DNA from: Clostridia bacterium
GTDB lineage: Bacteria; Bacillota; Clostridia; Christensenellales; Aristaeellaceae
Length of the DNA: 43,887 nt
Direction: 5' to 3'
Assembly: GCA_017527065.1 (NCBI GenBank)
Contig: JAFXQO010000060.1
Location: 1 to 43,887, forward strand
Shown: one piece after another, positions 23,267 to 38,609 of the stretch
Numbering within the stretch: position 1 is the stretch's first letter
Layout: each line of letters begins with the position of its first letter
Notes under the pieces: generated by a model
Databases searched by the model: none
Told to the model about the DNA's origin: nothing
The model's input: the letters and a program-made list of their open reading frames with translations, nothing else
Program-made: the position numbers and the translations under genes

Positions 23267-26047
23267 TCAGGGCCGGCGGCGCTCAGCCATGAGCTCGGCC
23301 ACGGTCTTTTCCAGACGCAGCTCACAGGAGCGGATCTCCAGGCCCGCCTGGGCGAGGAAGAAGCGCAGGTAGAAGGTGCCCATGTCGACGGCCTCCGTCT
23401 CCACGGTCTGCCAGTCGCGGTCCGCGCCCCGGAGCGTGACGGTCTTCAAAAGGTCGCGCCCCTTGAACACGGACAGGGACATCTGGGAGACGTCGTTCGA
23501 GTCCACGCTCCGAACCTCCATGCGCAGGCGGTAGAGGCCGCCCTGTTTGACGGCGATGGTGAAGCGGGTGTTCGCGCCGCGCTCCATGCCGATGCGCTCC
23601 GCGGGTATGACGATGTGGCCGGGGTCGTCGGGCTCGGGCTCGACGAGGATGAGGGGGATCTCCTCCCCGTCGAAGGAAGGCGCGTGGGCCAGCGCTTCGT
23701 CCAGGGGGGTCTCGCGCCCCAGCAGGCGCAGGAGCGCCGGGCTCTCCAGGAGGAAGCGGCAGATGTTTTCGGCGCTGCGCAGGTATTCCTGCCGCGTCAC
23801 GGCGCCGCTCTTCAACGCTTCGGCGGAATTGTCGCGGTTGGAGTTGGAGGCGGCGTCCGCGGCGACCATGTAAAGGTCGTTCTGGGCGCGGATCATGGCG
23901 GCCATGTTGCCCCGCTCCCCCGGGGCGTCCGGGTCGTTGCCGCGGGCCCACCAGTCGGTCATTACCTGGCCGGCGAAGCCCCAGTCCCCGCGCAGGATGG
24001 TCGTCAGCAGATCGTAATTGCTGGCGGTCCAGTAGCCGTTGATGGGATTGTAGCTGCTCATGATGGAGCGCGCGCCGCCTTCCTTCACGGCGATCTCGAA
24101 GGCCTTCAGGTAGATTTCGCGCAGGGCGCGCTGGGAGACGACGGCCTCCACGTCGTGACGATGGGTCTCCTGGCTGTTGCAGGCGAAGTGCTTGATCGTG
24201 CCCGTGACCGAATAGCGCTGCATCGCCCTGAGCTGGGCGGCGGCCATGCGTCCCGTGAGAAGCGGGTCTTCGGAGAAGTATTCAAAATTGCGGCCGTTGA
24301 GCGGATGACGATGGATGTTGATGCCCGGCCCAAGCAGGGTGTCCACCCGGTTCTTGCGCAGCTCCAGACCCTCGTACTCGTAGAGCTCCTCCACGAGCGG
24401 GAGGTCAAATGTGCAGGCCAGGCAGGTGCCGTTGGGCATGGCGAAGGCGCGGGCGCCGCAGTCCATGCGGATGCCGCTGGGGCCGTCCGCGCAGCAGGCC
24501 GTGGGAATGCCTTTGGCCAGCAGGCCCGGCGTCACGCCGCCGAAAGCGCCCGCCGTGCCCGCGGTCACCTTGGGAGAGCACATGCCCTCGCCGCGCACCA
24601 GGGTGATGAGTTCCTCGTCCGTGAGCTGATCCACGAACGCCTCCAGCGGGACTTTCCCGTCGAGGACGTCGCCCAGCTTCCAGCCCTTATCGCCCGTGCA
24701 GGGGCGCGCGGCCGGCAGCTTTTCCAGGCGGCGGGCGGCGGGATCAACCGAGCGCAGAGGGGCGTCCTCCCAGGCCTTTTCCCCGCCGGGACCGGGACGC
24801 AGGCGCTTAAAGGGCGTGACGGGCGCAAGGGCCTCCTCCAGCCGCTCCACGACCGTCTCTTCCAGCGCCATGGAGCCGGCCGGCGCGGCGCTTCGCACGT
24901 CCGTGCCCGCGAAGAAGCGGTACTCCCCCGCCTCCAGCACCCAGCAGTTGGCGTGCCCCGTCACGCCGCTGTCATCATAGGAGGCCAGGGCCCCAGAGGC
25001 GCAGGAGAGCGTCAGGGAGGCGCTGCCGCCCGGCTCGAGGGTGGGCGTCTTGGCGAAATCCACGAGCGAACGCGCGGGCTGGCCGAGCCTGCCCTGGGGC
25101 TTTTCCACGTAGAGCTGCACGACCTCGCGGCCCGCCCTCGCGCCGGTGTTGACGACCGTCAAAGGCAGGGTGAAGACGCCGCCTTTTACCTCCGGCGCGC
25201 CGAAGGACACGCTGAAGGTGGTGTAGCCCAGGCCGAAGCCGAAGGGATAGACCGCCGACTCGGGAGAAAAGGTTTCAAAATAGCGGTAGCCGACGTAGAT
25301 GTCCTCCTGGTAAACATTGCGCGTCACGCTGCCAAAATTCCCGAAGGCCGGGTAATCTTCCAGGCGGCGGGCGATGGTGTCGCTGAGCTTGCCGGAGGGA
25401 AACGCTTTGCCGGTGAGAACGTCCGCTGCGCCGCGTCCGCCCTCCTGGCCGCCCTGCCAGACATAGAGGACCGCCTGGGGCCGGAATTCCTCTACCCAGC
25501 TCATGTCGATGATGTTGCCCACATTGAGCACCACCGCGACGCGCTTGAAGGCGGCGCACACTTTGGCGAGCATGTCTCTCTCCGCGGCGGTGAGGCAGTA
25601 GCTGCCCTCATCGGGGGAATTGTCCTTATCCTCGCCAGCGGTGCGCCCGATGATCGCGACGGCGCCGTCGTTGCGCGCCGCGGCCCCGGCCACGAGCGCG
25701 GCGTCCAGGGGCATCTCCTCCTGGAACCAGGGCTCCGCCGCCCAGCCCTGCCCCGTATAGAAGGGATGATCCACCAGCCATGCCTCGTAGGCGGCCTTTA
25801 CGCCTTGATCCACGGAGACGTCCCCGCTCTCCTCAAGGGCCTGTGTGATTCCGGCTACCGGGGCGGTGTTCACCATGCCGCCGGAACCTGTGCCGCTCTT
25901 GTAGTAATTGAACTGGCTGCGTCCGAAGACGGCCACGCGGCTCCCCGGCGCGAAGGGCAGCGCGCCCTCGTTGCGCAGGAGCACCGATCCGGCCGCGACA
26001 GTCTCGCGGGCCTTGGCCGCGTAGGCGTTCACGTCAAAAGTCTTCAT
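23267..26047 (-). CDS. GH3 beta-glucosidase with inverted domain order
   Basis: A 926-residue protein without a signal peptide. The usual GH3 order is reversed. The GH3 C-terminal alpha/beta domain comes first (VLLRNEGALPF at the N-terminus, GIPNWARV-type elements absent), then a fibronectin-III-like domain (about 300-370). The catalytic TIM barrel comes next (about 480-760), with DGPSGIRM, NGRNFEYFSEDPLL, KHFACN and the nucleophile Asp near 695 in VMTDWW. A further 120-residue beta-rich tail resembles a carbohydrate-binding module. Inverted GH3 enzymes are known from Ruminococcus and Butyrivibrio. Likely acts in the cytoplasm on imported gluco- or xylo-oligosaccharides. AAAGGAGG precedes the ATG. 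Confidence 0.93.
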   Translation of the reverse strand: MKTFDVNAYAAKARETVAAGSVLLRNEGALPFAPGSRVAVFGRSQFNYYKSGTGSGGMVNTAPVAGITQALEESGDVSVDQGVKAAYEAWLVDHPFYTGQGWAAEPWFQEEMPLDAALVAGAAARNDGAVAIIGRTAGEDKDNSPDEGSYCLTAAERDMLAKVCAAFKRVAVVLNVGNIIDMSWVEEFRPQAVLYVWQGGQEGGRGAADVLTGKAFPSGKLSDTIARRLEDYPAFGNFGSVTRNVYQEDIYVGYRYFETFSPESAVYPFGFGLGYTTFSVSFGAPEVKGGVFTLPLTVVNTGARAGREVVQLYVEKPQGRLGQPARSLVDFAKTPTLEPGGSASLTLSCASGALASYDDSGVTGHANCWVLEAGEYRFFAGTDVRSAAPAGSMALEETVVERLEEALAPVTPFKRLRPGPGGEKAWEDAPLRSVDPAARRLEKLPAARPCTGDKGWKLGDVLDGKVPLEAFVDQLTDEELITLVRGEGMCSPKVTAGTAGAFGGVTPGLLAKGIPTACCADGPSGIRMDCGARAFAMPNGTCLACTFDLPLVEELYEYEGLELRKNRVDTLLGPGINIHRHPLNGRNFEYFSEDPLLTGRMAAAQLRAMQRYSVTGTIKHFACNSQETHRHDVEAVVSQRALREIYLKAFEIAVKEGGARSIMSSYNPINGYWTASNYDLLTTILRGDWGFAGQVMTDWWARGNDPDAPGERGNMAAMIRAQNDLYMVAADAASNSNRDNSAEALKSGAVTRQEYLRSAENICRFLLESPALLRLLGRETPLDEALAHAPSFDGEEIPLILVEPEPDDPGHIVIPAERIGMERGANTRFTIAVKQGGLYRLRMEVRSVDSNDVSQMSLSVFKGRDLLKTVTLRGADRDWQTVETEAVDMGTFYLRFFLAQAGLEIRSCELRLEKTVAELMAERRRP

Positions 26048-26118: not shown

Positions 26119-27027
26119 TCAAATCCACCACTCGGGCGTCAGTTCGCCCAGCGTCATGACCCGTTCCTGTTTGTAGTCCATCATGATCTCGACGCCCTTG
26201 TACGTCGCCGGCATCAGCTGCACCATCAGCTCCCGGCAGGCGCCGCACGGCGCGCCGCTGGACCCGTCCGGCAGGATCGCCACGACCTTTCTGATTTCCT
26301 GTTCCCCGTTCGTGAGCATGTTGAAGATGGCGTTGCGCTCCGCACAGATCCCAAGCGTGGAGCAGGTGTCGACGCACACGCCGGTGTAGATCCTTCCGGA
26401 GCCGGAGAGGATGGCGGCCGAAACCTCCCCGCAGGTGACGTAATCCGATATCCTGCGTTCGTTCCGCACGGCCGAGGCCGCCGCGTACAGCCTGTCCCAC
26501 TGCCACTGGTCTTTCGACAGGCTGCTCACGTATCCGTTACGCGTTTCATGCATCAGCGGCACGTCGACGTCTTCCGATTTCCACTGGTACCGGAAACCGA
26601 CCTTCTCCTGCACGCGCTTCGATTTCACATTGCCTTCATAGTAGCCGACCCAGACCTTCGTCATGCCGATATCCTCGAAGGCATGGCGGAGCATTTCCCC
26701 CGCCGCCTCCGGCATGATGCCCCGCCCCCAGAAGGGCTTTCCGAGCCAGTAGCTCAGCTCGCATTCATCGTCGCGTTCGGTCATGTCGGTATGGCCGTTC
26801 AGCTTCAGTTCAATGGCCCCGATGGCCCTGTTGTCCGCTTTCAGGCAGACAGCGTAAGCCTCCCTGCCGTTCAGCACGTTCCTGATCACGTCGCGGCTCT
26901 CCTCCAGGCTCCGGTGAGGCGGCCAGCCCGCGATCGGCCCGACGTCCGGGTCCTTCGCGTAGCGATACAGGTCCTCCGCGTCGCCTTCTTCCCAGCGGCG
27001 CAGCGTCAGTCTTTCCGTTTGAAGCAT
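26119..27027 (-). CDS. GNAT acetyltransferase fused to a cytidine deaminase-like domain
   Basis: A 302-residue fusion in one uninterrupted frame. Residues 1-165 are a RimJ/RimL-type GNAT domain (MLQTERLTLRRWEEGDAEDL; acetyl-CoA loop around GKPFWGRGIMPEA). Residues about 175-302 are a zinc-dependent cytidine deaminase fold: CAE (228-230) supplies one zinc Cys and the catalytic Glu, and PCGAC (260-264) the other two Cys. The start at 27027 follows GGGGAGG with proper spacing; an upstream ATG at 27075 lacks one. It lies in a likely operon with a DUF2441-like gene and a GNAT-nitroreductase fusion. Substrates are unknown; both halves keep their key residues. Confidence 0.9.
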   Translation of the reverse strand: MLQTERLTLRRWEEGDAEDLYRYAKDPDVGPIAGWPPHRSLEESRDVIRNVLNGREAYAVCLKADNRAIGAIELKLNGHTDMTERDDECELSYWLGKPFWGRGIMPEAAGEMLRHAFEDIGMTKVWVGYYEGNVKSKRVQEKVGFRYQWKSEDVDVPLMHETRNGYVSSLSKDQWQWDRLYAAASAVRNERRISDYVTCGEVSAAILSGSGRIYTGVCVDTCSTLGICAERNAIFNMLTNGEQEIRKVVAILPDGSSGAPCGACRELMVQLMPATYKGVEIMMDYKQERVMTLGELTPEWWI

Positions 27028-27099
27028 GCTCTTTTTCCTCCCCTGCGGGCCGTTTCCATCGGTTCGCCGCTTCATCCCCGGCTATGCCGGCCGGCGAAC

Positions 27100-27648
27100 C
27101 TAAACGTTGGCATTGATTTCCTTTACGATTTCAACGATCTCGATATCGCCGTCCGCGAGGATCTCCACGATCGGATCGCTGCCGTCCTCGTTTTTCCCGT
27201 TGGCCCAGTAGATTTCGGCCAGCCTGAGGTTTTCCGCCTCGTCGGCGCATCCGTCAAAACACTTGTACGCGTCGCCTTCGTATGTCCTGCCGTTGACCTT
27301 TATTTTCGCGATGCCGTAGGTAGGCCTTCCCAGCGACGCGAAATAATCGCCCCACTGTTCGGCCTCTTTGAACGTCTTCGACACATACAGCGAAGCCATG
27401 CGCGAGGGATACTGGGGATACTTTTCTTTCCTCACTTTCTCAAGCGCCAGCTCCCGCAGCGCCACGTCCACAGGATGCGGAAAAACTGTGTCTTTGTATT
27501 TTTCAGGATCGTTATAGATGTCCTTCACGACCTCGATCTGCTCGTAGACGCGCTTGTATACTCTGTTGGGATGCGCTTCGTCCATTATGATATGTTCTCC
27601 CGCGCGCTTGGGAATGTCCGATATGACATGGTAATAATACGCTTCCAC
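27100..27648 (-). CDS. DUF2441-like protein
   Basis: A 182-residue soluble protein beginning EAYYYHVISDIPKRAGEHIIMDE and containing NRVYKRVYEQI. I recognise the general DUF2441 pattern, a family found in Firmicutes often beside acetyltransferases; no biochemical function is known to me. It starts at a GTG nine bases after GGGAGG. It sits between two GNAT-fusion genes, 30 bases after one and 72 bases before the other, so co-transcription is likely. No signal peptide, membrane segment or metal motif is seen apart from a lone CFDGCAD. Confidence 0.75.
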   Translation of the reverse strand: MEAYYYHVISDIPKRAGEHIIMDEAHPNRVYKRVYEQIEVVKDIYNDPEKYKDTVFPHPVDVALRELALEKVRKEKYPQYPSRMASLYVSKTFKEAEQWGDYFASLGRPTYGIAKIKVNGRTYEGDAYKCFDGCADEAENLRLAEIYWANGKNEDGSDPIVEILADGDIEIVEIVKEINANV

Positions 27649-27678
27649 GATGCCGTCCTCCCGATCTTTCCGGAACTG

Positions 27679-28680
27679 TCATCCGGGAAATCTGTTGAAC
27701 CAGGCCCTCTCTTCAAAGGCGCGCTTCTTCGGCTGCGCCGCTTCCTCTTCGGCTATGCCGACCGGAAGGACGCAAACCAGTTCGTATCCGTCCGGCACGC
27801 CGAGGATCTTTGCCATTTTGTCCCCGATCCGGTCCGCGTCGGTAATGTGGCCTTCGTACCAGCAGCTGCGATATCCCAGCGCCGTGATGGCCAGCAGCAT
27901 GTTTTCGATGGCGGCGGCGTAATCCTGGGTGGCGAAGCACCGGTCACGGTAGGCGATGATTCGCCGGGTCAGCACGCAGATCACGGCCGGCGCCGTCTCC
28001 GCCACCGGCGGGTCGATCACGGCCCTGAGCTTTGACAGCGTTTCGGGATCATCCACGGCGATCAGGCTGGTGGTCTGCTTGTTGCAGCCGGACGGCGCCG
28101 CCAGCCCCGCCTCCATGATGGCCGTGAGATGCTCTCTCGGCACGGCGTCCGGTTTGTATCCGCCGCGATAGCTGCGCCGGGAGAGGATCAGCCGCAGAAG
28201 CGACGCCGAATCATTCAAGGGCATAACGTAGATCTGGCAGGGGTTTTCATCGCCCCACACCGCCGGAATGACTTCCAGCTCCATAAAGCCCATGGCCTGG
28301 TAAAAACGGTTTGTCTCGTCGTAGTCGGCGTAGTAGCCCATCGCCACGGTCTTCACCTGCATCAGCGCGTATCCCAGCCTGATGGCATGGCTCTTCGCGG
28401 CCTTAAAAAGGGCCTTCCCCACGCCGTGACGGTGGTATTCCTTCAACACGCCCATGACCGCGAGCTCAACGGTTTCCCGGCCCGTCTCTTTCAGGCAAAG
28501 GAACCCGACGGGACGGGATTCCGCAAAGGCCGCAAAGCAGATGAGTTCACGGCTGTCGCGTATGTACGCTTCCCTCGTTTCAGTCACCTCGAACCAATCC
28601 GTCAGCGCCTCAAGGACAGTCCGGACGATTTGCTCCTTCTCCCCGGGCGCTTCGATCATCTTCACAAAACACTGATCCAT
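27679..28680 (-). CDS. GNAT acetyltransferase fused to a nitroreductase-family domain
   Basis: A 333-residue fusion. Residues 1 to about 155 are a GNAT domain (VMGVLKEYHRHGVGKALFKAA is the acetyl-CoA-binding motif A; NRFYQAMGF is motif B). Residues about 160-333 are a nitroreductase-like FMN protein (LILSRRSYRGGYK, then LAAPSGCNKQT, and a late GYRSCWYEG loop). The start at 28680 follows GCGAGGTG; the longer frame would begin inside the promoter. It is the first gene of the minus-strand cluster. Unlike stand-alone nitroreductases it is probably the paired module for one small-molecule substrate, but which is not visible. Confidence 0.88.
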   Translation of the reverse strand: MDQCFVKMIEAPGEKEQIVRTVLEALTDWFEVTETREAYIRDSRELICFAAFAESRPVGFLCLKETGRETVELAVMGVLKEYHRHGVGKALFKAAKSHAIRLGYALMQVKTVAMGYYADYDETNRFYQAMGFMELEVIPAVWGDENPCQIYVMPLNDSASLLRLILSRRSYRGGYKPDAVPREHLTAIMEAGLAAPSGCNKQTTSLIAVDDPETLSKLRAVIDPPVAETAPAVICVLTRRIIAYRDRCFATQDYAAAIENMLLAITALGYRSCWYEGHITDADRIGDKMAKILGVPDGYELVCVLPVGIAEEEAAQPKKRAFEERAWFNRFPG

Positions 28681-28723
28681 GTTCACACCTCGCCATTGAT
28701 GTTTGATTTTGTCACCTAAAGCT

Positions 28724-28752
28724 ATTATACTGAATGAGCCGTAAAAAAACAA
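28724..28752 (-). promoter_or_regulatory. Promoter of the GNAT-nitroreductase cluster
   Basis: On the minus strand: TTGTTT (28752-28747), a 17-bp spacer, and TATAAT (28729-28724). It is divergent from the promoter at 28812-28840, so the two GNAT-fusion transcripts share a 120-bp control region. Confidence 0.75.
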
Positions 28753-28811
28753 GTGCCGAAGCAGTCCCGCAGGACAGCCCGCGATAAAAATGACAAACCT
28801 GAAGGAAAAAC

Positions 28812-28840
28812 TGGACAGCGGCGGCGTCGTGTGGTATAGT
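28812..28840 (+). promoter_or_regulatory. Promoter of the GNAT-pyrophosphatase-like gene
   Basis: TGGACA (28812-28817), a 17-bp spacer, and TATAGT (28835-28840). The start codon at 28872 follows AAGGGAAGCGG. Confidence 0.75.
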
Positions 28841-28871
28841 CAGATTATAAAATGTAAAGGGAAGCGGATAA

Positions 28872-29663
28872 ATGAAAATCACGGAGTACTTCGCCGGCGG
28901 CGAGCAGGAGCGCTGGCTTAACCAGATCAAACGCGCCGACTGGCGCGGCGGCCAGTATCTGTATGAGCTGCTCCGGGACCATCGGCTGAAGGAGCTGTAC
29001 GGAGAGAAGACCGACGTCCTCCTGCTCACGGACGGCGAAAAGCTGCTGTCTTTCTGCACCTACGCGGAGCGGGACGATATCCCTGATCCCGCGCTGACGC
29101 CCTGGGTCGGATTTGTCTATACCTTCCCGGAATACCGAGGAAAGCGGCGGATGGGCAAACTCCTTGAGCGCGCCTATGCGCTGGCGAAGGCCGACGGATA
29201 CGATTGCCTCTATATCTGCACCCGTGAAGAAGGCCTGTATGAGAAATACGGATGCGTTTTCTGGAAGATGATGAAGGATATGGAGGGCGAGGACAGCAGC
29301 GTCTTCCGGCTGCCAATCGTCAGGAAGGATTACAGCGGCATCCTGGGCAAAACCGTCGGCGGCACGATTGACCGTCCCCTCGGCAGCGCGCACCCGAGGC
29401 ATCCGGACATGATCTATCCGATCAACTACGGCTATGTCGACGGGGTCATGGCCGGAGACGGCGCGGAGCAGGACGTCTATGTGTTCGGCGCATCAGAGCC
29501 GATCCGGACGTTCACCGGAAAGGTTGTCGCCGTCCTGCACAGGCTGAACGACTGCGAGGACAAATGGATCGTCAGCGTTGACGGCGCGACGCCCGACAGG
29601 GATACGATCCTGCGAACCGTCGACTTCCAGGAACAGTATTACATGGGAGAACTTTACATGTGA
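28872..29663 (+). CDS. GNAT acetyltransferase fused to an inorganic-pyrophosphatase-like domain
   Basis: A 263-residue fusion. Residues 1 to about 145 are a GNAT domain (VYTFPEYRGKRRMGKLLERA motif A, YEKYGCVFW motif B). Residues about 155-263 resemble the small single-domain 'inorganic pyrophosphatase' proteins of clostridia: GTIDRPLGSAHPRHPDMIYP, then NYGYV, AGDGAEQDVYVFG and a C-terminal FQEQYY. The acidic metal-binding motif is partly kept (GDGAEQD in place of DGDPLD). This half could hydrolyse a phosphoanhydride or simply bind a phosphate ligand. It is divergent from the other two GNAT fusions and 51 bases before a GH3 gene. Confidence 0.82.
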   Translation: MKITEYFAGGEQERWLNQIKRADWRGGQYLYELLRDHRLKELYGEKTDVLLLTDGEKLLSFCTYAERDDIPDPALTPWVGFVYTFPEYRGKRRMGKLLERAYALAKADGYDCLYICTREEGLYEKYGCVFWKMMKDMEGEDSSVFRLPIVRKDYSGILGKTVGGTIDRPLGSAHPRHPDMIYPINYGYVDGVMAGDGAEQDVYVFGASEPIRTFTGKVVAVLHRLNDCEDKWIVSVDGATPDRDTILRTVDFQEQYYMGELYM

Positions 29664-29714
29664 GCGGTTAAATTGACACATAACCACCACAGGAAAGAAA
29701 GGGAGGAACACTCA

Positions 29715-32309
29715 ATGGCGAAGATCTACGCGACCACAGACCCGGCCGTCAGCCGCCGGGAAATCGAGAACGGCGAACGCGCGCGGGCCATCGCGCCGCA
29801 AGGCATGGTGCTCCTGGAAAACAACGGCGCTCTGCCTCTGCGGGGCGCAACCGGGAAGATCGCCCTGTACGGGAACGGCGTCCGCCGCACGGTGAAGGGC
29901 GGCACAGGCTCCGGCGACGTCAACAGCCGGGACGTCGTCAACGTGGAACAGGGACTGGAAGCGGCCGGCTTCACCATCGTCACCAAGGACTGGATCGACC
30001 GGGAGATGAAGAACTTCGAGGACGCCCAGCGCGCCTGGTCCGAAGAGATGGCGGAGGAATTCAGGAAGCTGGGCAAGGCCGCCATCATGAAGCTGTTCAG
30101 CAACCCCTTCCGCGACCCCGCCATCGTGCCCGTGGAGGATGCCGACCTCGTGCCCGGCGAGGCGGACACGGCGATCTACGTGCTGTCGCGCAACTCCGGC
30201 GAGGGCCGGGACCGGCGCGACCTGCCGGGCGAATACGAGCTGTTCGACGCCGAAATCGACGCGATCCGCAAAATCGCTTCCGCCTATGAAAAGACCATTC
30301 TGGTGCTCAACGTGGGCAGCGTGATCGACATGCGGGCGCTGAAGGCCATCGACGGGCTGGACGCGATCCTTCTGATGAGCCAGGCCGGCAATTTCGGCGG
30401 CTACGCCCTGGCCGACGCGCTGACGGGCAAGGTCTCCCCCAGCGGCCGCCTGACCACCACCTGGGCTGTCAACTACGGGGACTATCCCTGCGCGGACACC
30501 TTCAGCCACCGCAACGGGGACCTGGACGACGAGTACTACACCGAAGGCGTTTACGTGGGCTACCGGTATTTCGACACCTTCAACATCGCCCCGCAGTATC
30601 CCTTCGGCTACGGCAAGTCCTACACCGACTTTACGATGGAATTGACGGATGTATCCGCGGACGAGGAAAGCGTGCGCCTGCTGGTCAAAGTTGCCAACAC
30701 CGGAAAGCTGCCCGGCCGCGAGGTGGTTGAGGTCTATTATTCCGCGCCGGACGGGGCGCTCGAGAAGCCCTATCAGGAGCTGGCCGGCTTCGGGAAGACA
30801 AAGGAGCTCGCCCCCGGCGAATCCGAAACGCTGACCATCTGCTATCCCACCCGCAGCATGGCGAGCTACGACGCGCAAAAGGCCGCCTGGGTGCTGGAAA
30901 AGGGAACCTACTATGTCCGCTTCGGCGCGCATTCCCGCGCCACCTCCGTCGCGGCGGCGCTGACGCTGGAGGGCGACGCCGTGACCGAGCAGCTTCAAAA
31001 CATGCTGCCGCTGGACTGCGAGATGACTCTCCTGAGCAAGAAAGGCGTCGCGCCCTACAGCTATCCCGGCGAGGCGGAGGAAAAGGCGAAGGCCAGGGTC
31101 TTCCGGCTGGACGCGGGGAAGATCAAGACCCATACGACCGTCTACCAGGGCGCGCCCCAGGCGCTGCCCAAGACGGACAAGGCGGAAAAGATCACCCTGC
31201 AGGATGTCAGGGACGGCAAGGCGACGCTGGACGAGCTGGTCAGCCAGCTGACGCCCTTCGAGCTGGCCACGCTGTGCGTGGGCGCGTCGCGCGGGGGCTT
31301 CTTCGACGGCGGCCCGCAGATCGGCGCGGCCTCCGCCGTGTGTCCGGGCGCGGCCGGCGACACGACCTCTCTGCTGACGGCGGACCGGGGCGTGCGCAAC
31401 CTGATCATGCCGGACGGCCCGGCCGGTCTGAGGCTGACCCCCGCCTTCAAGGTGGACGAAAAGGGCACGGTGTACGCCCTGGGCGCGCCCTTCCCCGGCT
31501 TTGAACTGCTGGAGGCGCTGGCGGCAGACAAGCCAGAGATCCCCGCAGACGCGACGGCTTATTACCAGTACACCACGGCGATCCCCATCGCCACGCTGCT
31601 GGCCCAGACCTGGGACGAGGCGGCCATCGAGGCCGCGGGCGACATCGTGGGCGGCGAGATGGAGCTCTTCGGCTGCGACCTGTGGCTCGCGCCGGGCATG
31701 AACATCCATCGCAATCCGCTTTGCGGGCGCAATTTCGAGTATTATTCCGAGGACCCGCTGCTGGCGGGCAAGTGCGCCGCCGCGGACACGCGGGGCGTTC
31801 AGAAGCACAGGAGCGCCGGCACGACCATCAAGCATTTCGCGTTCAACAACCAGGAGGACAACCGGAACCACGTCAACGCCCATATCGACGAGCGCGCGAT
31901 CCGCGAAATCTACCTGAAGGGCTTTGAAATCGCCGTGCGCGAGGCCCAGCCCAAGGCCATCATGACCTCCTACAACCTGATCAACGGCGAGCACACCGCC
32001 AACAGCAGCCAGCTGATCGACCGGATCGCCCGCGACGAGTGGGGGTTCGAGGGCATCGTGATGACCGACTGGGGCACCACCGGCGGCATGGGTGGGGGCC
32101 AGCCGTTCAAATACGGCGATTCCTGCGCCTCCGGCTGCGTGAAGGCGGGCAACGACCTGACCATGCCCGGCAGCGACAGGGATGTGAACGACATTCTGGA
32201 CGCCCTCGGCAAGAAGGACGGCGAAACGCCCTATCCGCTGAGCTTGGGCGAGCTGCAGGCCTGCGCGAAGCGGCTGCTGAAGCTGATCATGCAGATGGAA
32301 AGGGACTGA
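29715..32309 (+). CDS. GH3 beta-glucosidase with inverted domain order, second paralogue
   Basis: An 864-residue protein without a signal peptide. As in the minus-strand paralogue, the alpha/beta domain comes first (residues about 20-300), then the fibronectin-III-like domain (about 310-420). The TIM barrel follows (about 500-860) with MPDGPAGLRL, NIHRNPLCGRNFEYYSEDPLL, KHFAFN and nucleophile Asp785 in GIVMTDWGTTGG. It lacks the extra C-terminal beta-rich tail. GGGAGG lies nine bases before the ATG at 29715; a longer frame from 29673 would start at an unsupported TTG. The two paralogues flank the GNAT-fusion cluster in opposite orientation. Similar in domain plan, they clearly differ in sequence, so separate substrates are likely. 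Confidence 0.92.
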   Translation: MAKIYATTDPAVSRREIENGERARAIAPQGMVLLENNGALPLRGATGKIALYGNGVRRTVKGGTGSGDVNSRDVVNVEQGLEAAGFTIVTKDWIDREMKNFEDAQRAWSEEMAEEFRKLGKAAIMKLFSNPFRDPAIVPVEDADLVPGEADTAIYVLSRNSGEGRDRRDLPGEYELFDAEIDAIRKIASAYEKTILVLNVGSVIDMRALKAIDGLDAILLMSQAGNFGGYALADALTGKVSPSGRLTTTWAVNYGDYPCADTFSHRNGDLDDEYYTEGVYVGYRYFDTFNIAPQYPFGYGKSYTDFTMELTDVSADEESVRLLVKVANTGKLPGREVVEVYYSAPDGALEKPYQELAGFGKTKELAPGESETLTICYPTRSMASYDAQKAAWVLEKGTYYVRFGAHSRATSVAAALTLEGDAVTEQLQNMLPLDCEMTLLSKKGVAPYSYPGEAEEKAKARVFRLDAGKIKTHTTVYQGAPQALPKTDKAEKITLQDVRDGKATLDELVSQLTPFELATLCVGASRGGFFDGGPQIGAASAVCPGAAGDTTSLLTADRGVRNLIMPDGPAGLRLTPAFKVDEKGTVYALGAPFPGFELLEALAADKPEIPADATAYYQYTTAIPIATLLAQTWDEAAIEAAGDIVGGEMELFGCDLWLAPGMNIHRNPLCGRNFEYYSEDPLLAGKCAAADTRGVQKHRSAGTTIKHFAFNNQEDNRNHVNAHIDERAIREIYLKGFEIAVREAQPKAIMTSYNLINGEHTANSSQLIDRIARDEWGFEGIVMTDWGTTGGMGGGQPFKYGDSCASGCVKAGNDLTMPGSDRDVNDILDALGKKDGETPYPLSLGELQACAKRLLKLIMQMERD

Positions 32310-32501
32310 CCTTTCCGGACGGGCGATGGCCCGCAGGACGATGAATAAACGGTGAATTTATGAACAGGCCGCCTTTTGAAGTAGTTTCTCTGAAAAACGG
32401 CGCTCCCTTCACGCTCAGCGCCGGGAAGCCGCTTCAAATGGCGGCCATGATTCACCAGAGCCTCACGAAGACGCGAAGAGGCGTCAGGAGGATTGAAGAA
32501 A

Positions 32502-33182
32502 ATGGACAGACCGGTCACGACACTGTTTATGCTGGTATCCGTAGACGGAAAAATCAGCACAGGCGCAACGGACGACTTGGATGTGGACCAGGATTTTCCC
32601 CATATCGCCGGGCTGAGGGAGGGCCTGCACCAGTACTATGAAATCGAACAGACCACAGATCTGTGGTCTTTCAACACGGGACGGGTACAGGCAAAAATGG
32701 GGGTCAACACAAGGGAAATGCCGGCAAAGACGCCGGTGTCCTTCGTCCTGCTGGACAACCGCCATCTCAACGAACACGGCGTCCGATACTTCTGCGCAAG
32801 ATCAGAGCGATTCGTCCTGATCACGTCAAACAGGGATCATCCGGCTTTCGGCGTCAACGAGGATAACCTTCATATCCTCTATCAGGAAAAGGTTTCACTC
32901 AAGGACGCGTTGACGCGGCTTAAAAGACAATTCGGCTGCGAGCGGCTTACGGTTCAGTCCGGCGGGACCGTGAACGGTTTGTTTCTGCGTGAAAAACTGT
33001 TTGATTATGTGGACATCGTCGTCGCGCCGGCGCTGATCGGCGGAAAGGATACGGCCACGCTGGTTGACGGGCCTTCATTGCGGGCAAAAGAAGAATTATC
33101 CCAACTGGGGGTGCTGCGGCTGATCGAAGCCAGTGACTTACAGGATTCCTATGTGCGGCTGCGCTATCAGGTGATCGGCTGA
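32502..33182 (+). CDS. RibD C-terminal/dihydrofolate reductase-like protein
   Basis: A 226-residue Rossmann-type reductase. The start TLFMLVSVDGKIST and the later block ERLTVQSGGTVNGLFLREKL, DYVDIVVAPALIGGKDTATL are the RibD_C signature (NADPH-dependent reduction of a pteridine- or riboflavin-type precursor). No deaminase domain is attached and no other riboflavin genes are nearby, so it is one of the stand-alone paralogues of unknown substrate. The ATG at 32502 has AGGAGG ten bases upstream. The 192-bp gap before it carries no supported gene. Confidence 0.88.
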   Translation: MDRPVTTLFMLVSVDGKISTGATDDLDVDQDFPHIAGLREGLHQYYEIEQTTDLWSFNTGRVQAKMGVNTREMPAKTPVSFVLLDNRHLNEHGVRYFCARSERFVLITSNRDHPAFGVNEDNLHILYQEKVSLKDALTRLKRQFGCERLTVQSGGTVNGLFLREKLFDYVDIVVAPALIGGKDTATLVDGPSLRAKEELSQLGVLRLIEASDLQDSYVRLRYQVIG

Positions 33183-36947: not shown

Positions 36948-38441
36948 TCAGTCCCTCCAGAAAAGATCCCTGGTATAAACCTTTTCTTTCACGTCATCAA
37001 GAGCCGCATTGTAGCGGTTGGCAATGATGCACCCGCACATCTTCTTGAACTTTTTAAGGTCATTGACCACCACGGAGCCGAAGAAGGTCGTGCCGTCCTC
37101 CAGCGCGGGCTCGTAGATCACCACGGTCGCGCCCTTTGCCTTGATCCGCTTCATGACGCCCTGGATGGAGGACTGGCGGAAGTTGTCGCTGCCCATCTTC
37201 ATGGTCAGGCGGTACACGCCGACCACAACTTCCTTCTGCTGGTTTTCTTTATCGGCCGAGTAGGACTCTGAATTGCCATAGGTTCCGGCGATCTCCAGCA
37301 CCCGATCCGCGATAAAGTCCTTTCTGGTGCGGTTGGATTCCACGATTGCCTGGATCAGGTTCTCCGGCACGTCCCGGTAGTTCGCCAGAAGCTGTTTTGT
37401 ATCCTTGGGCAGGCAATAGCCGCCGTAACCGAAGGATGGATTGTTGTAGTAATCCCCTACCCGGGGATCGAGGCACACGCCCTTGATGATCGGCGCGGTC
37501 TTAAGGTGCTTGACCTCCGCATAGGTGTCCAGTTCATTGAAATAGCTGACGCGGAGCGCAAGGTAGGTGTTCACAAACAGCTTGGTCGCTTCAGCCTCTG
37601 TCATTTCCATGAACAGCACAGGAATCGACGTTTTTATGGCTCCCTGCTGCAGAAGGGCGGCAAAGGTTTTCGCGGCGTCCATGTTGCCTTCATCGGCGCC
37701 GACAATGATCCGGCTCGGATACAGGTTGTCGTAGAGCGCCTTGGACTCGCGAAGGAACTCCGGGCTGAAGATGATGTTGTCCATTCCCATCTTCTCACGG
37801 ACGTGGACGGTGTATCCGACCGGAATCGTGGATTTAATAACGATAGTCGGCTTGGTCTCCCGGTCAGCGGTCGCTTCATTGATAAGCCCCAGAACGGTTT
37901 CCACAGCGGAGCAGTCAAAGAAGTTCGTCTTGGGATCGTAATTCGTCGGCGCGGCGATGATGATGAAGTCGGCCGACGCGTATGCGGATTTCGCGTCCGT
38001 TGTTGCGGTCAGGCTCAGTCCCCGCTTTTCATGTTCCGCCATGTACTTTTCGATATACTCATCCTGAATCGGGCTTTTCCAGCTGTTAATCATTTCGACC
38101 TTTGCCGCGACGATATCCACAGCGGTCACATCATTGTGTTGGGACAGCAGGACGGCGAGGGAAAGGCCGACATAGCCGGTTCCGGCGACGGCGATCTTCT
38201 TCCTTTCGACCGTGACCTGCTCGGCTTCGTCGTCCACAATGACATCCGAAGGCTGGAAGCCCAGGGCAGCGGACAGGGAAAGAAGCTGGTCCACAGACGG
38301 GATATAGTCGCAGGTTTCCAGTCTGGACAGAATGGAACGGTTTATATTCGCCTTCTTCGAGAGCGCAGCCTGGGAGAGCCCCATCGTCTTCCTCCGGCTG
38401 ATCACCGTCTCAGAGAGGAGTTTCAGTGATAAATGCTTCAT
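36948..38441 (-). CDS. UDP-glucose 6-dehydrogenase with an N-terminal XRE-type DNA-binding domain
   Basis: A 497-residue fusion. Residues 1 to about 70 are a Cro/C1-type helix-turn-helix: [20 protein letters not shown], then [12 protein letters not shown] and a dimer-side [14 protein letters not shown]. From residue 80 a full UDP-glucose/GDP-mannose dehydrogenase follows: NAD loop GTGYVG (87-92), catalytic Cys343 in [10 protein letters not shown], and the central Lys in [20 protein letters not shown]. The ATG at 38441 has AGGAG eight bases upstream. It heads an operon supplying UDP-uronic acids. The architecture suggests an enzyme that also binds its own promoter, perhaps sensing UDP-glucose, UDP-glucuronate or NAD(H) state. 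Confidence 0.93.
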
Positions 38442-38462
38442 ACGGCAGCTCCTGTGATATCT

Positions 38463-38609
38463 TGTTGCTATCAGCGTCATTCATTTATACCGGTTAATAT
38501 AGTAATAATAGCAGAAAGCCTTGAAAAAAGCAATCGTTATGTTGTTGGTTTAATGAAAATATATCAATCACGCGTGTCGCTCGTTTCTTTTCGGATTCAG
38601 ATAGCAACA
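38463..38609. repeat. Ten-base inverted repeat flanking the UDP-uronic acid operon promoter
   Basis: TGTTGCTATC (38463-38472) lies in the leader and its exact complement GATAGCAACA (38600-38609) lies upstream. The centre of the pair falls on the -35 box. Exact ten-base matches are unlikely by chance in such a short stretch. They could be two binding sites for the XRE domain of the fusion dehydrogenase, permitting a loop. The rest of the 373-bp gap (38442-38814) holds two promoters and no supported gene. Confidence 0.5.
38505..38533 (-). promoter_or_regulatory. Promoter of the UDP-uronic acid operon
   Basis: On the minus strand: TTGCTT (38533-38528), a 17-bp spacer, and TATTAT (38510-38505). 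The predicted start is near 38498, giving an untranslated leader of about 55 bases. Confidence 0.8.

Follow-up and report, generated by a model that had tools for sequence, protein, structure and literature searches.

We analysed a stretch of 43,887 nucleotides from a Clostridia bacterium of the Aristaeellaceae (contig JAFXQO010000060.1; hereafter the window), which is contig 13 of a 3.07 Mb genome (G000) in 85 contigs. It carries a cluster of four genes, three of which encode a GNAT acetyltransferase domain fused to a second enzyme domain, namely a cytidine deaminase-like domain (CDA), a nitroreductase (NTR) or a short pyrophosphatase-like domain (PPA), with a stand-alone DUF2441 gene among them (Table 1). 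Each gene is a single uninterrupted frame, and Pfam searches confirmed the three fusions and the DUF2441 gene at the coordinates given by a first-pass annotation of the letters alone. The first gene matched Acetyltransf_3 (E 2.5e-30) and dCMP_cyt_deam_1 (E 3.4e-7), the third Acetyltransf_7 (E 5.6e-11) and Nitroreductase (E 1.3e-24), and the fourth Acetyltransf_9 (E 5.9e-8) and Pyrophosphatase (E 3e-5), the last barely above the cut-off (24.3 against 23.5 bits). The GNATs of genes one, three and four are called P1-, P3- and P4-type below. With three different top Pfam models they are not one module; the earlier suggestion of reuse with different partners proved correct, and far more widely than the window shows.

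Table 1. Features of the gene cluster and its surroundings in the window
Coordinates	Strand	Feature	Basis
23267-26047	-	GH3 glycosidase, flanking context only	Pfam
26119-27027	-	GNAT (residues ~1-172) + cytidine deaminase-like domain (~173-302)	ATG at 27027; Pfam
27100-27648	-	DUF2441 protein, stand-alone gene	Pfam E 1.3e-15
27679-28680	-	GNAT (residues 1-158) + nitroreductase (159-333)	ATG at 28680; Pfam
28681-28871		Divergent intergenic control region, 191 bp	Promoter-like sites, + strand by scan, - strand by eye
28872-29663	+	GNAT (residues 1-150) + short pyrophosphatase-like domain (151-263)	Pfam
29673-32309	+	GH3 glycosidase, flanking context only	Pfam
32493-33182	+	RibD_C (reductase-like) gene, wider accessory neighbourhood	Pfam

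Recurrence was assessed in a survey of 300 genomes of the family, including the window's own, with each fusion protein as query; counts are given among the 299 others. The full GNAT-CDA fusion was found in 13 genomes (12 at 68-84% identity and G178 at 50%), the GNAT-NTR fusion in 16 (66-74%) and the GNAT-PPA fusion without a stop in 14 (60-73%; the G237 copy ends at the contig end), and each was kept in several genera. The GNAT-PPA count excludes stop-crossed genes in G012 and G280 and a 40% GNAT-PPA-like match in G135, and the GNAT-NTR count excludes G315, which was found in the frame census alone. Since every one of the fusions turned up again in other sampled family genomes, we ruled out assembly errors joining separate genes, an outcome that would have undone the first-pass annotation, as their source. 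DUF2441 relatives were present in 27 genomes, in open frames of 165-232 amino acids that are apparently unfused. All three fusions together were found in 0 of the 299 other sampled family genomes, and the pairwise overlaps were 0 for CDA and NTR, 1 for CDA and PPA (the case at 50% identity) and 3 for NTR and PPA, against about 0.6 to 0.75 expected under independence; including G315, the overlap of GNAT-CDA and GNAT-NTR would be one genome. The annotation had proposed one modular system and had named as contrary to it the finding of three fusions that never occur together; on this co-occurrence we dismissed a single system of three fusions.

In relatives, the halves of the fusions usually stood apart or had other partners, an exchange that was clearest for the P1-type GNAT. 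When named genomes were scanned with this domain, the best 80 of at least 561 relatives were kept (66-83% identical): CDA followed the GNAT in frame at 18 of the 80 loci and other partners were present at 19, counts that include L198 and L237 (internal stop) and L187 (contig end). The P1-type GNAT was found alone or with CDA, NUDIX, HD, NTR, DUF2087, DUF3795, CPCC, transglutaminase or other GNATs. Pfam searches on representatives gave NUDIX, DUF2087, a second GNAT, HD_3, nitroreductase, DUF3795, CPCC and transglutaminase as its partners, and a P-loop kinase partner scored below the Pfam cut-off. Labels were assigned by eye for an esterase (L174), one DUF3795-like domain (L191), L284 and some GNATs (L177, L180, L385 and L400), and the N-terminal extensions of clusters 18, 28, 30-33 and 41, apparently chance open frames, were excluded as partners.

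The other domains were similarly joined to several partners. The NTR half, which follows a GNAT in the window, lay behind GNATs of at least five kinds and once ahead of one (L267); the P4-type GNAT was joined to PPA, YunG, ASCH and further GNATs; and the PPA half was joined to GNAT, NUDIX, RluA-type pseudouridine synthase, NAD(P)H-hydrate repair enzymes, GrpB and an APH kinase. NUDIX stood before or after PPA (L337, L341), and the domain labelled GNATb stood on the N side (L175, L212) or the C side (L400, by eye). Triple fusions had the orders P4GNAT-P1GNAT-CDA (L167), GNAT-P3GNAT-NTR (L244, L247 and L255) and GNATa-P1GNAT-CDA (L385, by eye). With many partners per domain, no fixed pair of the kind expected of a Rosetta-stone fusion was found. 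Three of these joins were noted in their own right: the P4-type GNAT with YunG is present in L292 and ten relatives (cluster 2; Pfam on L292 only), and the short pyrophosphatase-like domain forms the C-terminal tail both of RluA-type pseudouridine synthases (L335, L336 and L338-L340) and of enzymes for NAD(P)H-hydrate repair (L070, L349, L354 and L355), in clusters 6 and 7, with Pfam on L339, L349 and L070.

Partners differed even between close relatives. Among 107 P1-type GNAT homologues, 22 labelled architectures imply at least 21 changes on any tree, and a tree of the GNAT domains (107 domains, 172 columns) needed 41. Among the 75 pairs with 88% identity or more, architecture differed in 60 (free versus fused included), and in 26 both members were fused with no common partner (GNAT subtypes counted as different). 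Two GNATs 96% identical carry an N-terminal P-loop kinase (L166, kinase-GNAT) and another GNAT (L201, GNAT-GNAT), and L190 (transglutaminase-GNAT-GNAT) and L191 (GNAT-GNAT-DUF3795-like) share a GNAT that is 94% identical. At the DNA level, 65 of 85 pairs of P1-type GNAT cores at least 82% identical showed no flank similarity (up to 1.5 kb either side), with flanks under 300 nt uncompared and scored as no similarity. In 24 loci laid out side by side, N-terminal partners enter directly at codon 1 or 2 of the GNAT and C-terminal partners mostly follow its T-K-E/D-x-W end (L174 and L205 differ). One further pair, L172 and L178, has GNAT genes about 97% identical and an upstream kilobase 96.5% identical, with no similarity found 3' of the gene.

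The genes also lie near one another above expectation. Among the matches listed, 12 of 174 same-genome gene pairs, in 10 genomes, were at most 10 kb apart, against 1.2 expected (about tenfold; Poisson test, genome size set at 2.9 Mb and contig breaks ignored). The match to GNAT-PPA was separated from that to a P3-type GNAT by 17 bases (L271) and 51 bases (L092) and from that to a P1-type GNAT by 63 bases (L270), and the match to GNAT-CDA from that to NTR by 32 bases (G280:C136). The small contig G009:C94 (L092) carries in series RibD_C, CDA, another GNAT, a methyltransferase-like gene (by eye), GNAT-PPA and a P3-type GNAT, and its RibD_C is 81% identical to the RibD_C gene of the window, which lies 2.8 kb downstream of the GNAT-PPA gene.

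We then considered the GNAT content of the whole genome. G000 has 60 Acetyltransf_1 matches; six other genomes of the phylum have between 3 and 30, and two further members of the family have 39 and 42 (42 in G028). Eighteen pairs of GNATs in G000 (three inside one protein) are at most 3.6 kb apart against 4.2 expected, and contigs C1, C29, C44 and C56 hold other sites with three GNAT domains in about 3 kb. Because GNATs cluster genome-wide in G000, a GNAT cluster by itself is ordinary there; the annotation's view that the arrangement is unlikely by chance is borne out for the co-clustering of the gene groups and not for the GNAT cluster alone. Eight proteins, set against these 60 matches, join GNAT to a non-GNAT domain: the three described here and fusions with an AAA_18-like kinase (below cut-off; L113:1438-2529(-)), Cyclase (L125:1402-2502), ACT_7 (L143:978-1988(-)), a BD-FAE esterase-like domain (L157:333-1643(-)) and a complete ROK-family kinase joined in frame (L151:242-1711(-), on G000:C73). 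This count used Pfam on ten long frames outside the window; inspection by eye classed other long frames, such as those on C53, C62, C64, C17, C73:56054, C73:6922, C19, C28:58938, C38 and C61, as chance extensions or single GNATs. In the window itself, an unusual fusion of another kind was seen at 36948-38480(-), where a UDP-glucose dehydrogenase-like protein has an HTH_3 domain at its N-terminal side in the same frame.

The two divergent promoters claimed for the control region fared unequally. A scan placed plus-strand sites at 28812-28840 (10/12) and 28703-28731 (9/12), which lends the plus-strand promoter weak support, since the scan returned 3 sites over 4 kb against 1.2 (standard deviation 1.3) in shuffled sequence. 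It listed no minus-strand promoter-like site within 28681-28871, and for the minus-strand gene TTGTTT-17-TATAAT at 28752-28724 was read by eye.

The chemistry of the second halves was examined by motif and by comparison with solved structures. The zinc site of the CDA half is complete, with C56 A57 E58 and P88 C89 G90 A91 C92 invariant in 16 sequences. The N-x-E of cytidine deaminases contacts ribose, and at its position the CDA half has C46-x-D48, likewise invariant in 16 sequences; of the deaminase motifs previously reported as kept, the zinc motif is therefore present and the ribose-binding motif is not. Since C-x-D replaces N-x-E, the substrate is probably an aminated ring other than plain cytidine. 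The CAE and PCGAC zinc and catalytic motifs are shared with tetrameric cytidine deaminases (2d30, 1jtk and 1mq0), from which the CDA half differs in its C-x-D and in its fusion to GNAT. Blasticidin-S deaminases match less well (3oj6, E 8.5e-10; 1wn5, E 8e-8) and are more distant than the best cytidine deaminases (best E 8.5e-10 against 5e-17). The NTR half matches nitroreductase/BluB-like flavoproteins (3ek3, E 3e-12; 3eo8, E 3e-9) and differs from them in its N-terminal GNAT.

Family-I inorganic pyrophosphatases use E/K/E active-site residues in the N-terminal part together with a trio of acidic residues, D-x-D-x-x-D. The PPA half aligns with their Y-P-x-N-Y-G-Y...D-G-x-x-x-D core (6n1c and 1faj) but has about 110 residues and lacks the N-terminal part; its best matches start at chain residue 32 or later, short of a complete barrel. 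Acidic residues one and three (D46 and D51) are invariant and the middle one is variable. Hydrolysis of inorganic pyrophosphate by this half is doubtful.

ADP-ribosyltransferases (ARTs) bind NAD and have a triad of the H-Y-E/D type. The DUF2441 protein (PF10386; 58.1 bits against a cut-off of 25) matches a solved relative, 2aua (E 3e-26), and has H7, Y88 and E162 invariant in 12 aligned sequences; these residues may correspond to the ART triad and are compatible with a putative active transferase. Pfam places DUF2441 in its ART clan, according to PMC7955679.

Taken together, we think it probable, with some reserve, that the cluster captures one moment in the rapid reshuffling of an array of accessory enzymes that modify small molecules, in which neighbouring genes fuse and re-fuse and the halves act independently. 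The raw material would be genes for GNATs, deaminases, nitroreductases, NUDIX, pyrophosphatase-like and similar enzymes that sit near one another. Loss of a stop or a frame shift at a junction could join adjacent genes end to end as bifunctional proteins, which would last for a while and then re-fuse with other neighbours, and lateral transfer, as the scattered taxa suggest, may spread the fusions. The halves would fold and work separately, in acetyl transfer, deamination of an aminated ring and reduction dependent on flavin mononucleotide. Fusion would then bundle co-expressed activities without channelling of a shared substrate; the exchange of partners argues against channelling between the GNAT and its partner. 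The fusions, their recurrence, the partner exchange (clearest for the P1-type GNAT), both domain orders and the co-clustering are direct observations; we infer the junction mechanism, the independence of the halves and any role in detoxification.

Several results weigh against this reshuffling. Only 7 of 104 inner branches of the GNAT tree are well supported, which makes the count of 41 changes soft, and architecture is weakly clustered on the tree (41 changes, where shuffled labels averaged 48.4 and gave so low a value in 1 of 200), which means that some of it is inherited. In close pairs at least 82% identical, architecture differed in 17 of 43 for NTR, 3 of 10 for the P3-type GNAT, 1 of 5 for the P4-type GNAT (a chance frame) and 0 of 6 for PPA, with some chance N-extension labels remaining in these four counts. 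Some labels were made by eye, and that of L169 is doubtful: it is labelled free, and its upstream codons resemble the end of the L180 partner. GNAT/non-GNAT fusions in G000 (8 of 60) did not significantly exceed those in the six phylum genomes (about 2 of 57, ten long frames judged by eye without family search; p = 0.095), and we dropped the fusion rate as a sign of a special genome. In G028, of the same family, the rate was no higher (about 3 of 42, with APH-like, DinB-like and CitC-like parts; joins read by eye in 10 stretches, part of its long frames). No fusion junction was found beside its immediate unfused ancestor, and the retention of each fusion in several genera could reflect selection for a specific pair. 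The close pairs of PPA and the P4-type GNAT without exchange, together with the rate in G028, lowered our confidence slightly and raised that in the neutral-promiscuity account below to the same extent.

Among other explanations, we consider it unlikely that the GNAT is no more than a promiscuous domain in a genome rich in GNATs, its fusions neutral and the trio a coincidence of gene clustering. The high number of GNATs in G000, their genome-wide clustering and the non-significant difference in fusion rate all fit this account. It sits poorly with the retention of identical fusion types in several genera and with the invariant zinc-site residues of the CDA half, and PPA and NTR also have many partners, so that the GNAT is not the sole hub. 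A dedicated detoxification or salvage system is quite improbable. In it the three fusion enzymes would cooperate with DUF2441 against a single type of toxic compound, such as an aminonucleoside or nitro antibiotic, and each fusion would carry out successive steps. It could draw on the co-clustering of the gene groups above chance, on the divergent arrangement around a common 191-bp region and on the ART clan of DUF2441, in that rifamycin is acted on by a subset of ARTs, the Arr enzymes (PMC7955679), but the trio is absent from the 299 other sampled family genomes, the pairwise overlaps are few, each half is often alone or with an unrelated partner and DUF2441 occurs in only 27 of the 299.

We give an equally low probability to site-specific gene cassettes, in which an integron-like or other recombinase would move enzyme genes and fusions would arise at cassette joins. 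Similar genes in unrelated flanks and Treponema records among the hosts are what such movement would leave. Against it, no short shared element (28-160 nt, at least 82% identical) was present in four or more of the 80 named loci, in a comparison by sequence and with no search for attC structures or an integrase, and an integron-like site was dropped; 50 nearly identical nucleotides that precede L166 and L201 resemble the end of another GNAT gene (by eye). The GNAT-CDA protein, the only one searched, had 80% of its length covered by 0 of 155 matching plasmid records and 0 of 8 matching phage records, so carriage of the full fusion as phage or plasmid cargo was set aside for those collections. 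Separately, four viral contigs in IMG/VR (L423-L426) carry relatives of the P1-type GNAT, one at 79% identity. A known anti-phage defence system was likewise dropped, as PADLOC models gave 0 families for the four cluster proteins at E 0.01.

More broadly, and only tentatively, since we would sooner doubt than assert it, gut Bacillota together with spirochaetes may shuffle GNAT, nitroreductase, deaminase, NUDIX and pyrophosphatase-like units at nearly gene-exact boundaries, with partners unrelated at 94-96% GNAT identity. If so, bifunctional detoxifying enzymes would have a natural source in this combinatorial shuffle, which, if real and current, is a tractable natural case for the origin of bifunctional enzymes. 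Fusion is commonly taken as proof of a shared pathway; this fails here, where such nearly identical domains carry unrelated partners, and for one class of genes in gut bacteria, annotating from the partner in a fusion would be misleading. DUF2441 and the C-x-D deaminase are two specific enzyme families whose substrates can be tested.

No published description of these GNAT fusions was found in the literature searched by titles and abstract openings. End-to-end gene fusion and promiscuous domains are already known in bacteria (PMC4921024), and the present proteins resemble those in being end-to-end joins of genes with a domain that co-occurs with many others; they differ in having both domain orders and near-identical domains with different partners. 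The polyvalent proteins of phages and conjugative elements (PMC5512222) are likewise mosaic multi-domain proteins, whereas the fusions described here are found in cellular genomes and combine two to three small enzyme domains.

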